Source of the DNA: Lachnospiraceae bacterium
Lineage (GTDB): Bacteria > Bacillota > Clostridia > Lachnospirales > Lachnospiraceae
Assembly (NCBI GenBank): GCA_017520425.1
Contig: JAFXFO010000031.1
Span: 1 to 64,000 of the forward strand
DNA: 64,000 nt
Reading direction: 5' to 3'
Each line of letters starts with the position of its first letter. The stretch's first letter is position 1. Both the position numbers and the translations under genes were made by a program. The notes beneath the pieces were generated by a model, which was given only the letters and a program-made list of their open reading frames with translations, was not told the origin of the DNA and did not search any database. Positions 27,757 to 34,076 of the stretch are shown here, one piece after another.

Positions 27757-28533
27757 ATGTATCTGAAAACCCAAAATCATTATCAAAAATTGACTTTGGA
27801 AGCCACGAAAATCAAAGGTCAATTAGTGCATCTTCCTGAAGGCAAGCTCATCTGTGTACAAAACGGCAACTATGTCAAATGGTACCACAGCCTAGACGGG
27901 CATAACACCTACATCCCCAAATCCAATCTGGCATTCGCCGAGAAACTTGCCGTCAAAACCTATTTATCACAACGCTTGAAAGAACTACAACAGGAATTGA
28001 AGGCTCTTGATTACTACCTGCGTCACCATAAGAAATCAGAAATATGTGCCGATTCCATGCTGACTCACACATCACCTTTCGCGCCATTGCTCACCCCTTA
28101 TTTTAAATCCGTCAACGAGGAACTCTATTCTTGGGCAAATGAATCCTATACCCCCAATCCCACACACCCCGAACAGCTTATCCACAAATCATGCATGAAT
28201 CTTCGGGTCCGCTCCAAATCCGAAGCTCATATTGGCATGTGTCTTTATACCAGCAAAATCCCCTTTCGTTATGAAGCACCGTTAATTTTGGATGGTCACA
28301 TCCTATACCCGGACTTTACCATTCGCCATCCCATTACAGGTGAATTCTATTATTGGGAACACTTTGGGCTCATGGACCACGAAGACTATCGAAGAAATGC
28401 TTTTTCCAAGCTGCAACTCTTTTCTAACAACGGTATTTTTCCGGGCATCAACCTTATCACCACATACGAAACCAAGAATCATCCCCTCAGCCACGAAACT
28501 ATCGAAACATATATTCAATTATATTTTCTATAA
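27757..28533 (+). CDS. Orphan PD-(D/E)XK-type nuclease-like protein, copy 1
   Basis: A 258-residue protein after a strong AAAGGAGG site (six-base spacing). The N-terminal part has a small beta motif (LPEGKLICVQNGNYVKWYH, 26-44) and TYIPK, then a long helix (about 58-92). The C-terminal part carries a nuclease-like signature: Glu156 (RSKSEA), Asp186 (LYPDFTI) and Glu201 (YYWEHFG). This PDF...EhfG pattern resembles PD-(D/E)XK domains fused to some superfamily 1 helicases. It is an orphan: no methylase, helicase or transposase is adjacent. A close paralogue is at 33306-34076, and an inverted-repeat array begins 92 bases after its stop. Function unknown; nuclease fold likely, activity inferred. 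Confidence 0.8.
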   Translation: MYLKTQNHYQKLTLEATKIKGQLVHLPEGKLICVQNGNYVKWYHSLDGHNTYIPKSNLAFAEKLAVKTYLSQRLKELQQELKALDYYLRHHKKSEICADSMLTHTSPFAPLLTPYFKSVNEELYSWANESYTPNPTHPEQLIHKSCMNLRVRSKSEAHIGMCLYTSKIPFRYEAPLILDGHILYPDFTIRHPITGEFYYWEHFGLMDHEDYRRNAFSKLQLFSNNGIFPGINLITTYETKNHPLSHETIETYIQLYFL

Positions 28534-28569
28534 TGCTTTGCGTAAGAAATATCTCCTCATCAAAGCATT
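28532..28569 (+). terminator. Possible terminator hairpin after nuclease copy 1
   Basis: AATGCTTTG (28532-28540) and CAAAGCATT (28561-28569) form a nine-pair stem overlapping the stop codon, followed by a T-containing stretch. The loop is long (20 bases), so termination would be moderate; it could instead be the boundary of the repeat region. Confidence 0.4.
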
Positions 28570-28624
28570 TCGAATGCATGGTTTTTATTGATTTATAGGG
28601 TACATTCGCCTTTTATTTGCATAT

Positions 28625-28876
28625 TTTGGACATATACGAAATTATCTTATACCAATGTCCAGAAATATGTGATTTTATATGAATTTATGCGTCTTTTTTG
28701 TTTTATTGGACATATGAGAAATTTTTATCTCTGTATGTCCATGTTTCTCCCTGTTTTATGGACATTTTACACACATTATTTTCTATATATCCAAAACTCG
28801 CTCAAAAACAGATACATATTAGCAAAAATGAGATGTTTTTGGATATAATAGCACAGTTATATTGTATATGTCCAAA
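28625..28876. repeat. Inverted-repeat array 1 (four 39-bp units, TTTGGACA/TGTCCAAA arms)
   Basis: Four units lie at 28625-28663, 28705-28743, 28757-28795 and 28838-28876. Each is 39 bases: left arm like TTTGGACA, 23 unique bases, right arm like TGTCCAAA. Gaps between units are 41, 13 and 42 bases. Interiors differ, but several extend the stem with their own complementary bases (unit 2: GAGA with TCTC). Unit 4 has GGAT facing GTCC, which keeps a G-U pair. The pattern matches array 2 beside the paralogous nuclease gene. It fits RNA hairpins or paired protein-binding half-sites; it is not a CRISPR array because the repeats are short inverted arms. Confidence 0.75.
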
Positions 28877-29047
28877 ACAACCTTCCAAAAACATAGTTTA
28901 TCGTATGGAACCTTAGGCGATTCATTTAATTATTCTTATTCTTTTAATAGTACTAATCTGAAAATCATCATATTTTCAAATTATTTCCTCACACAAATTA
29001 TCACAGTGCATATTATGTACTATAATCAAAAACTTGGAGGCTCTATC

Positions 29048-29323
29048 ATGAGTGACTTAACAGCTTCAAACTGCGGATGCGGCAGTAATTCTATTTTTGG
29101 CGGTAACGGCGGCGGATGCAGCTGGATCATCTGGATTCTTCTGTTATCCTGCTTCTGTGGCGGCAATGGCGGCGGATGCGGCTTCGGCAACATCTTCGGC
29201 GGCAATAACGGATGCGGATGCAATGACGGTTGCGGCAGCAATTCCTGCGAATGGCTCATCTGGATTCTTTTACTTTCCTGCTTCTGTGGCGGCAACAACA
29301 ATTGCGGTTCTCGCTGCTGCTAA
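29048..29323 (+). CDS. Small Cys/Gly-rich protein with duplicated hydrophobic segment
   Basis: A 91-residue protein starting at MSDLTASNCGCG, with GGAGG seven bases before the ATG. It contains two copies of a module: Gly/Asn/Cys-rich stretch, then WIIWILLLSCFCGGN or WLIWILLLSCFCGGN (about residues 27-41 and 68-82), and ends in a CGSRCC tail. The layout resembles small high-cysteine proteins annotated as chorion-class in Lachnospiraceae genomes, whose role is unknown. The hydrophobic segments suggest membrane association or self-assembly; Cys clusters suggest cross-linking or metal binding. It is followed by a strong terminator, so it is a single-gene unit. Confidence 0.82.
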   Translation: MSDLTASNCGCGSNSIFGGNGGGCSWIIWILLLSCFCGGNGGGCGFGNIFGGNNGCGCNDGCGSNSCEWLIWILLLSCFCGGNNNCGSRCC

Positions 29324-29338
29324 TCTTTTTCTGTACGG

Positions 29339-29364
29339 CAGGCCCCTTCTCGGGGCCTGTTTCT
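29339..29364 (+). terminator. Intrinsic terminator after the Cys/Gly-rich gene
   Basis: CAGGCCCC-TTCTC-GGGGCCTG is a perfect eight-pair GC-rich stem (29339-29359) followed by TTTCT, 15 bases after the stop codon. Confidence 0.88.
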
Positions 29365-29446
29365 ACGAATGTTGACTTTTTTATTAGAGAATAGTTAAGG
29401 CACCCTACACATAGATATAGTTATACTACCCCTTTCAGGAGGTCCC

Positions 29447-29938
29447 ATGGAAGATATCAGACAGGACAGCATCCTGGCATTTGACACCTGCTTTACTAAC
29501 AATCACATATGTATGCTGAAGATCCTGCTTCCCTGCTGTGACACTTCTTTGCAACGTTATCTTGCAGTATATATACACTTTTTGGAACTAAAATATACAC
29601 TTACGGATTTTAAAAAGCTTTCGAAAAATTATCCCGCCGAGAAGCCTTCGGAACCCTTGCTCCTATTTGACAAGCTGCTTCCTTATTGCACTTCCCAAGA
29701 AAAGCAGCTTTTTTCACAGTTCAAAAGTCTTTTTGAAACCATGGAGAATCTTAAGAATATGATGAGCATGATGGAGCTTATGAAAGATATGTTTCCGGAA
29801 GGAATGAATGGTGCGGACGTTGAGTCCGGTTCGCCTGCCGATATGTTTAGTGCATTACAGGGTAAGTTCGGGCAAGGAGGTTTTGACCCAGACATTTTTT
29901 CAGCCATGTCGGGCATATTTTCCGGCGAAAGTACATAG
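29447..29938 (+). CDS. Hypothetical helical protein, 163 residues
   Basis: Not recognised. CAGGAGGTCCC lies just before the ATG, giving a strong ribosome site. The N-terminal half is helical with Cys residues (LKILLPCCDTSLQRYLAVYIHFLELKYTL). The middle is a Met-rich helix (ENLKNMMSMMELMKDMF, about residues 100-116) and the C-terminus is Gly/Asp/Phe-rich with two similar DMFSALQGKF and DIFSAMSGIF segments. No signal peptide is seen, so it is probably cytoplasmic. The next gene begins 30 bases later with its own GGAGG and is likely co-transcribed. Confidence 0.7.
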   Translation: MEDIRQDSILAFDTCFTNNHICMLKILLPCCDTSLQRYLAVYIHFLELKYTLTDFKKLSKNYPAEKPSEPLLLFDKLLPYCTSQEKQLFSQFKSLFETMENLKNMMSMMELMKDMFPEGMNGADVESGSPADMFSALQGKFGQGGFDPDIFSAMSGIFSGEST

Positions 29939-29968
29939 ATTTGTAATATATATAACGGAGGTATATGT

Positions 29969-30250
29969 ATGGAACATACATCCACTAAGCCCGAATGGAT
30001 GAACGATCCGTCGGTTCAGAATATTTCTACGGACAAACTAAACTTTCTGTCCGGACTGTTTCAAGAAGGAAAGGGCAAGTCCCAAAAGGAAATGATGGCC
30101 TTTGTCTTACCCATGATGAAGAAAGCGAAAGCAGAAAACTTAACCTTTACACCGGCAGAAATCTCCGCCTGCATTCAGGCTATAAAGAAGCATTCCACGC
30201 CCGAGGAATTGACTCAAATCGATAAAATCATGTCACAGCATAAGAAATAG
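29969..30250 (+). CDS. Hypothetical small helical protein, 93 residues
   Basis: Not recognised. It starts after ACGGAGG with good spacing. The sequence is hydrophilic and helical (LNFLSGLFQEGKGKSQKEMMAFVLPMMKKAKAENLTF), with a Lys-rich C-terminus. No membrane segment or signal peptide. It shares a Met-rich helix character with the 163-residue protein immediately upstream, so the two may form a complex; this is inference. It ends just before a shared bidirectional terminator that separates it from the convergent EF-G-like gene. Confidence 0.7.
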   Translation: MEHTSTKPEWMNDPSVQNISTDKLNFLSGLFQEGKGKSQKEMMAFVLPMMKKAKAENLTFTPAEISACIQAIKKHSTPEELTQIDKIMSQHKK

Positions 30251-30296
30251 CTTTTTAGGAAAAATAGTTATTTTGGGCGTCATCAATTTCCCGTAC

Positions 30297-30334
30297 AAAA
30301 AAACGTGGCAGTGTTTCCACTGCCACGAATTATT
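30297..30334. terminator. Bidirectional terminator between convergent genes
   Basis: CGTGGCAGTG-TTTC-CACTGCCACG (30304-30327) is a perfect ten-pair stem. It has an A-run before it and a T-rich stretch after it, serving both the plus-strand small genes and the minus-strand EF-G-like gene. Confidence 0.88.
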
Positions 30335-30339
30335 TTGTA

Positions 30340-32433
30340 TTAATCTTCAATATTATTCTCTGCAACCTTAGCTGCTCTTGCTGCTACTTCCTTCTCCTGA
30401 ACATCGCTTGGTGCCTGCTCATATCTGATAAATTCATAAGCATAGTCACCGCGACCGCCGGTCATGGAACGAAGGTCGGTACAATAACCGAACAGTGAGC
30501 TCATAGGGATTTCCGCTTCTACAATCTGCTTTCCGCCGGGAATAGGATTCATACCAAGTACACGACCACGTCTCTTATTCAAATCACCCATAACATCACC
30601 GGTGTAAGAATCCGGAACAGTCACCTTTAAGCTTGCGATAGGCTCTAATAATACAGGATGCGCTTCCATGAAGCCCTTCTTAAATGCCTGAATGGTAGCC
30701 ATCTTGAAGGCCATTTCGGAAGAATCTACAGGATGGTAAGAACCATCATAAAGCACTGCCTTTACGCCTACTACAGGATACGCAGCCAAAGGTCCCTTAT
30801 CCATGGAATCCTGCAAGCCCTTTTCTACTGCCGGGAAGAAGTTCTTAGGCACTGCACCACCAACAACTTCCTGCTCGAATACGAAAGGTACTTCCATATC
30901 ATCGGAAGGACTGAAACGCATCTTTACATGTCCGTACTGACCATGTCCGCCGGACTGCTTCTTATGCTTCGCTTCCACATCTGATGACTTCTTAATAGTT
31001 TCACGGAAGGCGATCTTAGGCTTGGTCAGCTCTACTTCCACCTTGTATTCGTTGATCAGTCTGCTAACCACGATATCAAGATGCTGATCGCCCATACCAT
31101 AGATTAAGGTCTGTTTGTTTTCTGCGTCATTCACTACCTTCAATGTCTGATCTTCATGAGTCATCTTCTGAAGTGCCTGTGAAATCTTGTCGATATCAGC
31201 TTTATTCTTGGGCTTATATCTCATGTATGTATAAGGCTTTGAAATCTCAAACTGACCGTATTTAATGGTGGTCGCCTTGGTAGATAAGCTGTTGCCGGTT
31301 CTTGCAGCGGTCAGCTTAGCCAACGCACCGATATCACCTGCATGAAGCTCTTTTACTTCGATAGGCTTATTGCCCTGCATTACATAAATCTTACCAATCT
31401 TTTCTTCGATATCCTTATCCACATTGTAAAGTAAATCGTCAGTCTTTAATACGCCGGAATTCACCTTGATCAAAGAATACTTACCAATGAAAGGATCCAC
31501 GATGGTCTTCCAGATATATGCTGACTTCGCCTTGGAGAAATCATAATTTGCATGATAAATATCGTTGGTCTTCATATTGATACCGGCTACTTCTCTGTTT
31601 TCGGGAGAAGGTACATACTTGATAATATCATCAATCAAGGTATATACGCCCTGCATCATGGTACTGGAACCCATGGTCATAGGTACGATACTTCCGTCCC
31701 ATACATTGGTACGAAGAGCTGCTCTGATTTCTGCTTCTGAGAAGGTTTCTCCGCTAAAGTATCTTTCCATGAACTCTTCACTGGTCTCAGCTACTGCTTC
31801 CATCAATGTATCACGGCAAATCTGGAGATTGGGCTTGTTGTATTCGGGAATCTCGCATTCCACAACTTCCTTGCCCACCCAACGGTTTGCAGTTTCACTG
31901 ATTACATTTACGTAACCTACAAACTTTTCGTTCTCACGAATCGGCAGATGAAAGGGAGCCAACTTCTTGCCGAACATCTCGGTCATATCTTCCACTACCT
32001 GACGGAAGGAAGCATTGTCCACGTCCATATTGGATACATAAATAATTCTGGGTAATTTGTACTTTTCACAAAGCTCCCAAGCCTTGATGGTACCCACTTC
32101 CACGCCAGCCTTACCGTTAACAACAATAATCGCTGCACCGGCTGCACTCATAGCTTCTTCTACTTCACCTACGAAATCGAAATATCCGGGAGTATCCAGT
32201 ATATTAATCTTATATCCTTCCCATTCAATAGGTATCACGGATGTACTGATAGAAAACTGTCTCTTCTGTTCTTCCTTACTATAATCACTTATGGTATTGC
32301 CATCTGACACCTTACCCATTCTTGAGGTGATACCTGATAAATAAGCCATCGCCTCTGCCAAACTGGTCTTTCCGCTGCCACCATGGCCAAGTAAACATAC
32401 ATTACGAATCTTGTCAGTTGTGTAAATATTCAT
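30340..32433 (-). CDS. EF-G-like translational GTPase with altered G4 motif
   Basis: A 697-residue protein starting at MNIYTTDKIRN, where GGAGG has proper spacing. It shows the full EF-G domain order: GTPase (P-loop GHGGSGKT at 16-23, DTPG at 80-83), domain II, and domains III-V ending with GGRGDYAYEFIRYEQAP. It belongs to the EF-G-like (COG0480 second-copy) group rather than canonical FusA: the switch I segment reads KRQFSISTS in place of the usual RGITI. The G4 motif, usually NKxD, reads SNMD (134-137). That change would be expected to weaken guanine recognition. The true fusA is presumably elsewhere in the genome. Role unknown; ribosome-linked GTPase is the family expectation. Confidence 0.88.
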   Translation of the reverse strand: MNIYTTDKIRNVCLLGHGGSGKTSLAEAMAYLSGITSRMGKVSDGNTISDYSKEEQKRQFSISTSVIPIEWEGYKINILDTPGYFDFVGEVEEAMSAAGAAIIVVNGKAGVEVGTIKAWELCEKYKLPRIIYVSNMDVDNASFRQVVEDMTEMFGKKLAPFHLPIRENEKFVGYVNVISETANRWVGKEVVECEIPEYNKPNLQICRDTLMEAVAETSEEFMERYFSGETFSEAEIRAALRTNVWDGSIVPMTMGSSTMMQGVYTLIDDIIKYVPSPENREVAGINMKTNDIYHANYDFSKAKSAYIWKTIVDPFIGKYSLIKVNSGVLKTDDLLYNVDKDIEEKIGKIYVMQGNKPIEVKELHAGDIGALAKLTAARTGNSLSTKATTIKYGQFEISKPYTYMRYKPKNKADIDKISQALQKMTHEDQTLKVVNDAENKQTLIYGMGDQHLDIVVSRLINEYKVEVELTKPKIAFRETIKKSSDVEAKHKKQSGGHGQYGHVKMRFSPSDDMEVPFVFEQEVVGGAVPKNFFPAVEKGLQDSMDKGPLAAYPVVGVKAVLYDGSYHPVDSSEMAFKMATIQAFKKGFMEAHPVLLEPIASLKVTVPDSYTGDVMGDLNKRRGRVLGMNPIPGGKQIVEAEIPMSSLFGYCTDLRSMTGGRGDYAYEFIRYEQAPSDVQEKEVAARAAKVAENNIED

Positions 32434-32509
32434 ATGTCTTCCTCCAAATAAGATGTAATTTGGGAACTTTTCACAAGTTGTTTTGAAATAATTCAAATCC
32501 CATATGTGT

Positions 32510-32538
32510 ATTTTACTAAATAATTGCACTTTTTTCAA
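32510..32538 (-). promoter_or_regulatory. Promoter of the EF-G-like gene
   Basis: On the minus strand TTGAAA (32533-32538) and TAAAAT (32510-32515) are spaced by 17 bases, about 77 bases upstream of the start codon. Confidence 0.6.
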
Positions 32539-32722
32539 GTAAATTTGTAATAATTGTATATATTTTTTACAAAATGTTTTTGCAATTGGATTTTTGGATG
32601 TGATTCATTCATAGCCACTCACTATACAATGTCTCCCTGCCCTTGCAGTCCTGTTGCCTCCCGCCACATGACGTCTTTTGACACCACAGTATTCTTCTTT
32701 CAATCCCGGCCACCCCTGCGTC

Positions 32723-33027
32723 TTTAGGCATGATACTGACTTTTTCTTTTGCGTCCGCCCAACTCGCGCCTTTGGGCAGAATACTGCATATTACGATTAA
32801 CTTTGCCCAAATCTCAAGCCCATTTATGGACGAATAACCTCTCACATACACCACATGGGCAACACAAGCTTTATTCCTCCATCTCTGCCCAATTTTCAGC
32901 CACTTATTGGGCAGAGGGAATCTTAATAGTATTCCTATGCCCAATTGGAGTATTTTACCTCATTTTCGCCACGGTTTCACCAATATTTTTGGGCATAGAT
33001 ATCGCCTTTATTAACTCTATGCCCAAA
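32723..33027. repeat. Inverted-repeat array 2 (five 40-41-bp units, TTTGGGCA/TGCCCAAA arms)
   Basis: Units lie at 32723-32763, 32771-32811, 32854-32893, 32906-32945 and 32988-33027, with gaps of 7, 42, 12 and 42 bases. Arms are TTTGGGCA-like and TGCCCAAA-like; the first unit is the most degenerate (TTTAGGCA/CGCCCAAC). Interiors of 24-25 bases are all different, yet units 4 and 5 extend their stems with their own complementary bases; unit 5 has a perfect 12-pair stem (TTTGGGCATAGA with TCTATGCCCAAA). The array lies between the EF-G-like promoter and nuclease copy 2. The rest of 32539-33290 shows no gene. The spacing matches array 1 while the arm sequence differs by one coordinated base change. 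Confidence 0.78.
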
Positions 33028-33290
33028 CAGCTTAGATATTTCATAAAATATATATTCAGCCAGAGAAGTATTTCCTAAAATCCATACTAAACAAAGAGAT
33101 GTTTTTCACAAACCGCATACTCAACCAAGAGAAACCTTGCATAACTAAGCGACAAATTATAATCATCTCAATAGATACCCTTAAAATACTTTACACTTTA
33201 CTATATTTCTAATATAATAATTTCAAACAGCAAATCAATTCATCATATATTCTAACGTTCCTATCATTATGCATCCCACCATTATTTACA

Positions 33291-33308
33291 AAGGAGGTAA
33301 TCATCATT
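33291..33308 (+). promoter_or_regulatory. Strong ribosome site leading to an AUU start
   Basis: AAGGAGGT (33291-33298) is followed by ATT at 33306-33308 with eight bases between the G of AGG and the codon. No in-frame ATG, GTG or TTG occurs until 33381, which is 83 bases downstream of the site and has no ribosome site of its own. Confidence 0.6.
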
Positions 33309-34076
33309 CACACTATTATTCTATCCAGATATCATGAACTAAAAAAACAAATACAAGACATCCAAAAGCAACTATACACTATGCCGGAAGGTCATTTATG
33401 TTGTACCAATAACGGTAAATATCAAAAATGGTATCATGTAACTAACAATATATATACCTATATTCCTAAAAAACAAAAAAGGCTCGCCGAACAGCTGGCT
33501 ATCAAGAAATATCTAACCACTTTACTTGAGGATTTGAGCAAGGAAAAGGAGGCACTTCAATTTTATCTAAAGAACTCCTCTGCCGCATCAAATGCGCAAA
33601 TATTTCTTCAACAATCCGAATACCGAACTCTTTTACAATCTTATTTTCAACCGGCTTCACAGGAAACTTCCGATTGGCTCAAAACCCCATATGAACATAA
33701 TACAAGTCATCCTGAACACCTGGTACATAAATGCATCTCCGGAAATATCGTCCGTTCCAAATCAGAATCCTTAATCGATATGCTCTTATATGTAAACAAA
33801 ATCCCCTTTCGATACGAATGTGCACTCCATTTTGATGAGGAAACACTTTATCCCGACTTCACAATACTTCATCCAAAGACACATGAGCCGCATTATTGGG
33901 AACATTTTGGCATGATGGACAAACCTACTTATGTCCATAAAAACAACTCAAGGCTACAAACATATCTCACTCATAATATTATCCCGGGCAAAAATCTTAT
34001 CATAACCTACGAGACTTCAAACCATCCCCTGGATTTATATACAATCGAAAAAATTTTACAGGTATATTTTTTGTGA
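33306..34076 (+). CDS. Orphan PD-(D/E)XK-type nuclease-like protein, copy 2, AUU start
   Basis: About 256 residues if translation begins at ATT 33306; the first ATG (33381) would remove the N-terminal helix that aligns with copy 1 (RYHELKKQIQDIQKQLYTMPEGHLCC against the copy 1 N-terminus). The strong AAGGAGG at 33291 serves only the upstream start. Shared features with copy 1 are the NGKYQKWYH motif, TYIPK, a long helix, RSKSES, LYPDFTI and HYWEHFG, and the end VYFL. So the Glu/Asp/Glu nuclease-like set is intact. Array 2 lies upstream. The two proteins are clearly homologous but well diverged, so this is not a recent tandem copy. Confidence 0.78.
   Translation: MHTIILSRYHELKKQIQDIQKQLYTMPEGHLCCTNNGKYQKWYHVTNNIYTYIPKKQKRLAEQLAIKKYLTTLLEDLSKEKEALQFYLKNSSAASNAQIFLQQSEYRTLLQSYFQPASQETSDWLKTPYEHNTSHPEHLVHKCISGNIVRSKSESLIDMLLYVNKIPFRYECALHFDEETLYPDFTILHPKTHEPHYWEHFGMMDKPTYVHKNNSRLQTYLTHNIIPGKNLIITYETSNHPLDLYTIEKILQVYFL

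Follow-up and report, generated by a model that had tools for sequence, protein, structure and literature searches.

A PD-(D/E)XK-like protein family associated with private, helically phased palindrome arrays in Lachnospiraceae

The DNA analyzed, referred to as the window, was the first 64,000 nt of contig JAFXFO010000031.1 in the assembly GCA_017520425.1, a 2.9-Mb genome of a gut Lachnospiraceae bacterium. Two paralogous genes, each with an array of spaced palindromes beside it, were located in the window as follows.

27757..28533, plus strand: gene P1, 258 aa with an ATG start, from the ORF listing; an N-terminal part of ~130 aa without database match and a PD-(D/E)XK-like C-terminal domain (E156, D186, E201-H202), assigned from profile matches and residue invariance.
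28626..28875, no strand assigned: Array 1 (family A), four 37-nt spaced palindromes, TTGGACATA...TATGTCCAA; units start at 28626, 28706, 28758, and 28839 (spacing 80/52/81).
32724..33026, no strand assigned: Array 2 (family B), spaced palindromes, TTGGGCATA...TATGCCCAA, three units being exact; units start at 32724 (weak), 32772, 32855 (weak), 32907, and 32989 (spacing 48/83/52/82).
33306..34076, plus strand: gene P2, a paralogue of P1, with ATT or ATC as its probable start codon, downstream of AAAGGAGG; the alternative ATG is at 33381.

Array 1 sits ~92 bp downstream of P1 and Array 2 ends ~280 bp upstream of P2, so that the array side differs between the two genes. The repeated unit is of near-constant length with the G-rich half-site first, and the two weak units of Array 2 carry four arm mismatches each. 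In the original prediction these were hairpin arrays; the inverted arms were found, but the unit is a spaced palindrome and need not form a hairpin. The homology of P2 begins at ~33306–33327, upstream of the ATG predicted by the ORF listing. Since AAAGGAGG was read at 33290–33297, followed by in-frame ATC/ATT codons, a non-ATG start is likely. P1 and P2 are 46% identical, and the genome search placed them among four paralogues. The pairing of two paralogues with one array each was confirmed and proved larger, as all four adjoin a private array. Each of the four arrays also has its own arm sequence, as had been proposed for the two in the window, with the consensuses of families A and B differing at a single base of the nine-base arm (TTGGA/TTGGG).

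The gene neighbors in this genome resemble housekeeping genes, as judged by eye. At the P1 locus, the sortase gene and the next shared gene lie 2109 bp apart, compared with 785–908 bp in all five sister genomes fetched, where P1 and its array are missing from the syntenic place. At the P2 locus, the distance from EF-G to vanZ is 3185 bp, compared with 1347–1518 bp in four sisters. This extra length cannot be credited to P2 alone because the neighboring lipoprotein gene is likewise unmatched in the four sisters.

The proposed Glu/Asp/Glu nuclease signature was retained in its acidic residues, as E156, P185-D186, and E201 were invariant in 52/52 aligned proteins, while the lysine of the ExK motif is replaced (E201-H202-F203). 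The alignment (A2) held 52 of 75 rows; L051, which has stop codons, and 22 others were left out, and since those rows were mostly loci without a detected array, it leans toward array-bearing members. The PADLOC profile HEAT_CxxC_PDDEXK matched three of the four paralogues (E 5.9e-5 for P1, 8.6e-5, and 0.0054), and the C-terminal domain of P1 matched the C-terminus of PADLOC PDC-S68 with E 1.3e-27. No Pfam or NCBIfam family scored above its cut-off for the protein, and a search by sequence among solved structures gave no relative (best E 0.36). Of 13 gene pairs, nine had a finite dS, and in these dN/dS was 0.04–0.22. Carriage as phage or plasmid cargo was considered without gaining support: three matches were obtained in the phage collection, of which one covered >80% of the query and lies on a 4.2-kb scaffold that is unverified and bears no more than two same-arm units; none of nine plasmid matches covered 80%, and viral contigs gave one partial match only. 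Among the matches listed by the literature search, with bioRxiv outside its scope, no publication described the protein or its arrays.

The association with arrays recurred in relatives. At least three same-arm units were found near the gene at 38/80 loci in set 1 and at 37/59 loci in set 2, the latter taken from 60 stretches that were hand-picked from match lists, mostly full-length matches, and are non-random. In set 1, three same-arm hairpins were present in 15/71 upstream and 25/76 downstream 1-kb flanks, whereas the same kind of test reached three in 1/140 control windows 3–4 kb away; seven of the 38 array-positive loci depend on AT-rich words. In set 2, 39/112 flanks were positive compared with 0/112 dinucleotide shuffles, and the arrays with at least three units, which reach up to 15, lay upstream in 31 cases, mostly 25–160 bp from the gene, and downstream in nine. 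A family commonly free of arrays had been named beforehand as evidence against the association, and this was found in part: at the threshold of at least three units, no array was detected at 42/80 and 22/59 loci, or at 31/67 set 1 loci with both flanks complete. The gene itself is patchily distributed and often multicopy within a genome, with a match in 21/61 genomes of the genus sample and in 68/200 of the family sample, some of the latter to the C-terminal domain only. Beyond common families, no recurrent partner gene was seen within 2.5 kb of the gene loci. Thus, the proposal of an undescribed nuclease-like family with private arrays was supported, as no family passed its cut-off and the association recurs.

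Across 67 arrays, the modal unit spacings match the helical repeat of DNA (R 0.667 at 10.5 bp, p ~1e-13), which points to recognition of double-stranded DNA rather than of a single-stranded hairpin. Between sites, loops were 0.33–0.44 identical and arms 0.79–0.91, the arm figure being inflated because the units were found by their arms; six locus sides were omitted from the half-site consensus comparison because their words were doubtful.

Arm bases covaried with residues 34 and 39 of the protein, which supports computationally the idea that each protein recognizes its own arm. Among 30 loci, base 2 of the arm was G at 8/8 loci with R39 and at 0/21 without it (Fisher 2e-7; L047 combines R39 with a mixed base 2 and was not counted). 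Base 6 was T at 11/11 loci with A34 and 3/19 without (Fisher 7e-6), and base 5 was A at 5/5 loci with V34 and 0/25 without (Fisher 7e-6). The arms W3 and W4 were excluded from this main table; the values for all 32 were 1.5e-6, 2.8e-6, and 3.0e-5, respectively. W4, the arm of L004, violates the R39/G2 rule, and its register is uncertain. Arm state changed 6–14 times on the tree, in which 5/36 inner branches were well supported; the pairs on those branches were 3:0, ~3:0, and 2:0, counts too small to reach significance. Outside the alignment, a rule linking S/T34 to C6 was followed at 2/4 loci. That test used 8/53 loci, of which L174 and L180 had two units each. Five loci (L215, L176, L210, L183, and L220) were dropped because their register was unclear or their units were few, and the others were too distant or lacked an array. 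The Mantel test gave partial r 0.145 (p 0.039) and 0.147 (p 0.050) and did not separate the N-terminal from the C-terminal half. As protein changes accompany site changes, an undescribed partnership of enzyme and repeat is indicated.

The arrays are not limited to the two genes first noticed; each family also occurs away from the genes. For three array families in the same genome, 30, 9, and 10 exact units lay away from the genes, while the corresponding reversed patterns, used as controls, gave 1, 0, and 0. Arrays of at least three units were present in 16/20 stretches fetched from this genome, and the dispersed arrays are mostly intergenic. In eight other genomes, the dispersed units of one arm numbered 4, 0, 2, 11, 6, 7, 0, and 0 (controls 0, 1, 0, 1, 0, 0, 0, and 0), and those of another arm numbered 42 and 46 in other genomes (controls 1 and 1). 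In 40 gene-less genomes of the genus sample, the TTGGRCA pattern was at background, with 22 hits summed compared with 20 for the control.

These elements have defined ends. In six family A elements of the same genome, homology stops at the outer half-sites, and one relative contains four dispersed copies and one gene-side copy of ~250 bp, 73–89% identical in pairs, that end likewise. Movement is not frequent, as 10/16 array places of genome G265 were also present in G266. Half-sites are conserved in place between these two relatives: across the seven of the 10 shared places with equal unit number, substitutions were 5/366 in arms, 25/494 in loops, 45/716 in spacers, and 158/1951 in flanks. Neither an exact empty site nor a target duplication was observed at any site, the intergenic DNA of sister genomes being too diverged, and in the direct G265-to-G266 insertion test at one place the array place was present in the relative too. 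At L023/L034, a 3.7-kb flanking block is 91% identical while the gene dS is 2.8, an apparent allele replacement at a fixed locus.

Several other explanations were weighed against these data. A defense or toxin nuclease might be held on the phased arrays and attack foreign DNA, the dispersed arrays being selected as a buffer, that is, a sponge or "DNA antitoxin". The C-terminal domain is indeed related to PDC-S68, a PADLOC phage-defense candidate (E ~1e-27), and to plasmid AAA/RecD-like proteins; half-sites are conserved in place, the presumed catalytic residues are invariant, and the allele replacement recalls restriction specificity genes. The PDC-S68 models span ~1200–1270 positions, and the C-terminal-only genome matches are ORFs of 656–1269 aa, whereas this family joins the domain to a small N-terminal part and arrays. 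With no recurrent partner gene, housekeeping-like neighbors, a single place in the phage and plasmid records covering 80% of the query, and ~250-bp element copies with defined ends that defense alone does not explain, this explanation is considered rather unlikely. That the arrays are operators of their own nuclease gene, with distant arrays as by-products, would suit the upstream positions in set 2, but downstream arrays are commoner in set 1 (15 upstream, 25 downstream) and arrays reach 15 units. Moreover, pure autoregulation, as originally suggested, is insufficient because whole arrays with half-sites conserved in place also lie far from genes; it is judged improbable. MatP/matS and ParB/parS are examples of proteins with chromosomal binding sites, and a domesticated factor that organizes DNA or regulates genes through dispersed phased arrays would agree with the helical phasing, the mostly intergenic positions, and the in-place conservation. 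The invariant nuclease-like residues, the patchy presence, and the co-occurrence in a genome of several paralogues that have different sites make such a chromosome-scale role quite improbable.

In type III toxin–antitoxin systems (ToxIN-like), an RNA repeat acts as the antitoxin, and there too a repeat array lies next to a nuclease gene. Since the arms here can pair and the array adjoins the gene, transcribed hairpin RNAs could be imagined to guide or inhibit the nuclease, in an omega-RNA-like or type III antitoxin-like manner. This earlier suggestion is disfavored because spacing tracks the DNA helix, arm mismatches on the gene strand of 69 arrays show no RNA-wobble bias (111 G·T, 110 A·C), arrays occur on either side of the gene, and Rfam gave no match in the arrays; loops are also little conserved between sites. 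The wobble count omits seven locus sides whose words were doubtful and scores some arrays on C-rich-first pairing. With the evidence pointing to double-stranded DNA, an RNA role is very improbable. Finally, the elements could be ordinary MITEs of another transposase with the nuclease gene merely nearby. Like MITEs, they are non-coding and dispersed with inverted, defined ends, but each end is formed by the outer half-site of an internal array made up of equivalent sites, no target duplication was seen, and the partner is a nuclease-like family rather than a recognized transposase. The recurrence in two locus sets over controls, one array family per paralogue, and the arm–residue covariation stand against coincidence, which is strongly disfavored and extremely improbable.

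The reading considered probable, from sequence comparison, is a sequence-specific nuclease for double-stranded DNA that is partnered with, and probably spreads, its own arrays, resembling RAYT/REPIN systems without being homologous to them. DNA binding is suggested by the residue–base covariation, and dimerization by the palindromy and the constant unit length. In this model, the N-terminal domain would read a half-site of ~8–10 bp, two protein copies would bind each spaced palindrome, and helical phasing would let many dimers share one DNA face. Gene and arrays would form a two-part system, gained and lost as a unit, in which the nuclease spreads and/or maintains array copies around the chromosome. 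We infer that the protein cuts and that its cuts drive the copying of arrays, break repair being one conceivable route. One objection is that a nuclease with so many sites in the chromosome would, if active, have to be restrained, for which the model does not account.

Of the roles first suggested, the REP/RAYT likeness fits best because the arrays are dispersed. As far as the cited sources describe them, REP/REPIN elements are short palindromic repeats in inverted pairs, scattered through intergenic DNA, with a dedicated nuclease gene beside them, with one repeat family per paralogue and with elements devoid of any gene (PMC3116915, PMC3733652). The inverted-pair repeats described here are similarly dispersed in the genome and found beside a dedicated gene. 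However, the family is not recognizably HUH/Y1, the IS200/IS605-type transposase class marked by an HUH motif and a catalytic tyrosine, as H-hydrophobic-H occurs in 3/52 proteins and Pfam gave no match. Its units form arrays phased to the double helix, whereas the REP repeat is recognized as a single-stranded hairpin. According to PMC8049555, RAYT genes occur in single copy and are passed on vertically, whereas the present genes are often multicopy and patchy. The GTAG tag described for REP repeats (PMC3733652) was absent from the half-site consensuses; it occurs in two distant loci (L203, L230) and so is not a shared tag.

A fuller version is put forward tentatively, as one that may well not hold: a PD-(D/E)XK-like nuclease would build and keep genome-wide phased arrays as a convergent counterpart of RAYT/REPIN on double-stranded DNA, with a simple amino-acid-to-base code at residues 34 and 39 that would allow each paralogue to start a private repeat family, and with persistence by selection or drive. 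The REPIN problem is how one nuclease gene and a short palindromic repeat can be kept side by side in a bacterial genome. If true, the present reading would add a second solution, unrelated to the first, from a common gut family that offers natural specificity variants. Owing to the covariation, specificity can be tested directly, and a nuclease with a readable code for spaced half-sites could become a useful tool. The partnership may also lie behind intergenic repeats that carry no annotation, and behind contig breaks, in assemblies of Lachnospiraceae.

The two nuclease-like paralogues of the window, P1 and P2, shared 46% identity, and the organism's own genome contained four matches to the protein in total, located as follows.

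27757-28533, + strand: P1, ORF, paralogue of P2
33306-34076, + strand: P2, paralogue of P1
C4:49342-50130: L003 gene, match in own genome
C21:18648-19436: L004 gene, match in own genome

The motifs RSKSE, YPDFT, YWEH and TYET were common to all four proteins, and E156, D186, E201 and H202 were invariant in 52/52 aligned proteins and in 59/59 proteins of a second set that included six near-repeats from the first alignment. The C-terminal half weakly matched a PD-DEXK model. Nothing above cut-off was found for the N-terminal 130 residues in Pfam or NCBIfam, and sequence search found no related solved structure. The dN/dS was 0.04–0.22 in nine of 13 gene pairs, namely those with finite dS. At the start of P2 (window 33290-33381), a strong Shine-Dalgarno-like sequence was followed by in-frame ATC ATC ATT, with the first ATG at 33381; P2 may either start at a non-ATG codon or have lost its start codon.

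As originally noticed for the two paralogues, each gene was accompanied by its own array with its own arm, and this held for all four genes of the genome.

Family A, beside P1: four 37-nt units TTGGACATA...TATGTCCAA
Family B, beside P2: 38-39-nt units TTGGGCATA...TATGCCCAA
Family C, beside L003: nine 33-34-nt units CAKATAGA...TCTATMTG, spacing about 64 nt
Family D, beside L004: four 48-nt units GCTTAGTTTT...AAAACTAAGC, spacing 73 nt

When at least three same-arm hairpins were required within a 1-kb flank, 15/71 upstream and 25/76 downstream flanks of the first set of gene loci were positive. Overall, 38/80 loci were positive, seven of them (L015, L019, L021, L035, L045, L063 and L066) depending on AT-rich words, compared with 1/140 control windows located 3-4 kb away; with both flanks complete, the count was 36/67. 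Two of the 80 loci, L072 and L073, were stretches of one contig (JAGAQI010000047.1) with identical outcomes in all flank tests, which reflects either misassembly or duplication of a large region. In the second set (60 stretches, 59 genes), where detection was blind to the arm, arrays were found at 37/59 loci (33/53 after excluding near-identicals to the alignment) and in 39/112 flanks, compared with 0/112 dinucleotide shuffles. On whether the family commonly occurs without an array, the answer was divided: the positive loci support the pairing, but at the threshold of at least three units none was detected at 42/80 and 22/59 loci, some of which had two units.

Arm distance and protein distance were correlated (r 0.36, permutation p 0.0002; 32 loci, descent uncontrolled), best in residues 22-58, although the N- and C-terminal halves were inseparable in this test. 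When 1762 arm-base/residue pairs were scanned, the top rank went to residue 34/arm base 6 and the next to residue 39/arm base 2. Across 30 loci, G2 accompanied R39 in 8/8 cases and other residues in 0/21 (L047, with R39 but a mixed base 2, was uncounted), T6 accompanied A34 in 11/11 and others in 3/19, and A5 accompanied V34 in 5/5 and others in 0/25. On a quick tree built without residues 30-45, in which 5/36 inner branches were well supported, arm states changed 10, 14 and 6 times and residues 9, 11 and 6 times; R39 was present in 12/13 G2 rows, T6 in 13/13 A34 rows and A5 in 6/6 V34 rows. Agreement among pairs on supported branches was 3:0, about 3:0 and 2:0; numbers this small do not allow a sign test. 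Among eight loci outside the alignment, R39 occurred with G2 (4/4), other residues without G2 (4/4), A34 with T6 (2/2) and V34 with A5 (1/1), while the pairing of S/T34 with C6 held in just 2/4. Especially instructive were L018 and L064, which at one chromosomal place encoded proteins 79% identical, H39 with TTGGG versus R39 with CGGGG. The idea of protein-arm specificity gains support from this covariation of arm bases with residues 34 and 39 (30 loci and, S/T34-C6 excepted, the eight further loci).

Unit length within one locus mostly varied by about 1 nt. Modal unit-to-unit spacings in 67 arrays were 48, 51-54, 60-64, 70-75, 80-85, 92-93, 106, 125 or 132, and were absent at 55-59, 65-69, 76-79 and 86-91, though individual spacings of 66, 69 and 78 do exist. 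The Rayleigh test at 10.5 bp gave R 0.667 and p about 1e-13 for these arrays, which are not fully independent by descent. The best period was 10.15 for all arrays, 10.45 for the first set and 11.0 for the second (R 0.763, versus 0.752 at 10.5). Arm mismatches on the gene strand in 69 arrays comprised 111 G·T versus 110 A·C, and no Rfam family matched the arrays, a weak L20-leader match lying elsewhere. The helical spacing, the mismatch balance and the Rfam result disfavour an RNA guide or antitoxin, as once proposed; judged by these patterns, the arrays very probably act as double-stranded DNA, not RNA.

Exact-unit patterns for families A plus B matched 30 places in the own genome, versus 1 for the reversed-pattern control; the corresponding figures were 9 versus 0 for C and 10 versus 0 for D. 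Of the matches, 27, 6 (one off-length) and 8, respectively, lay away from gene-side arrays. Among 20 stretches fetched around dispersed matches, 16 contained arrays of at least three units in family layout (A 81/52/81, B 82/53/82, C about 64 x n, D 73 x n). By a looser scan, L121 and L136 had a single unit each, and L127 and L130 none; L127 shared an 88-bp match with the B array of L124. By mechanical ORF calls, dispersed arrays lay mostly in gaps between longer ORFs, a few overlapping short ones. In six aligned A elements, homology started and stopped at the outer half-sites.

In one array (L131:1541-1795), TTGGA (P1 type) and TTGGG (P2 type) half-sites were mixed within single units, which suggests that P1 and P2 may cross-read or that the elements are hybrids. 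At L004:2710-3060, inspection by eye showed a tRNA-like sequence and, about 250 bp further along, an incomplete inverted copy of its 3' portion, resembling a remnant of an integrated element.

Similar dispersal was found in other genomes. G256 carried five copies of about 250 bp, four dispersed and one beside the gene (73-89% pairwise identity), likewise ending at outer half-sites, though some shared up to about 20 bp beyond on one side. TGGGTAT...ATACCCA gave 4, 0, 2, 11, 6, 7, 0 and 0 matches in eight genomes (control 0, 1, 0, 1, 0, 0, 0 and 0), and AGGGTAT...ATACCCT gave 42 and 46 in two (control 1 each). In the genus sample, 21/61 genomes had a protein match. TTGGRCA...TGYCCAA matched 30 times in the own genome, eight times in G256 and five times in G231, almost always at a length of 37-39 nt; five matches in G239 were rejected as units (36-44 nt). 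The remaining 17 gene-bearing genomes had 0-4, which is what differing arms would predict, and the 40 genomes without a protein match summed to 22 while the control summed to 20. Among genomes sampled from the family, 68/200 matched, in some cases solely where long proteins carry the C-terminal domain; counting fragments, a genome had up to 8 matches. In the phylum sample, 8/398 genomes matched at 1e-20, and the five full-length matches, including the own genome, all lay within the own family. Named relatives were labelled Lachnospiraceae or other Clostridia.

P1 and its array were missing between the same neighbours in five fetched sister genomes (785-908 bp versus 2109 bp). Between G265 and G266, 10/16 fetched array places of the former matched one of 14 fetched in the latter by flank, unit number differing at two or three of the ten, and an eleventh was found by search. 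At seven common places (six dispersed and the gene-side L251/L267), the substitution counts were 5/366 for arms, 25/494 for loops, 45/716 for spacers and 158/1951 for flanks (Fisher 0.004, 1e-4 and 1.5e-7), with a modest bias remaining as units were picked in one genome only (at most three mismatches). The low count in arms indicates that half-sites stay conserved in place, through either selection or repair-driven conversion.

At L055/L080 and L023/L034, divergence of the nuclease gene far exceeded that of the syntenic flanks, as though alleles had been swapped at a fixed chromosomal place; for L023/L034 this is suggested because the 3.7-kb flanking block was 91% identical while gene dS was 2.8. 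Beside one G265 array, a separate stretch of about 104 bp (L247:963-1066) matched about 20 places in G266 and thus represents another dispersed repeat family. The place of the L247 array was split between G266 contigs C69 and C30, the first match stopping inside the array; arrays may therefore fragment assemblies.

A literature search of limited reach found no description of the protein or its arrays. Unlike REPIN/RAYT, with its HUH signature and GTAG tag, the P1/P2 family had no HUH signature and its arrays no common GTAG tag; therefore, the system was not classed as REPIN/RAYT. In the main rival reading, the arrays serve as sponge for a defence or toxin nuclease; the C-terminal half resembled the C-terminus of PDC-S68, a phage-defence candidate (E about 1e-27). 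We favour a RAYT/REPIN-like partnership built on a putative double-stranded DNA nuclease, in which the N-terminal domain very probably binds the half-sites, one dimer would probably occupy each unit, the protein is likely to have nuclease activity, and the chances are even that this nuclease drives array spread.
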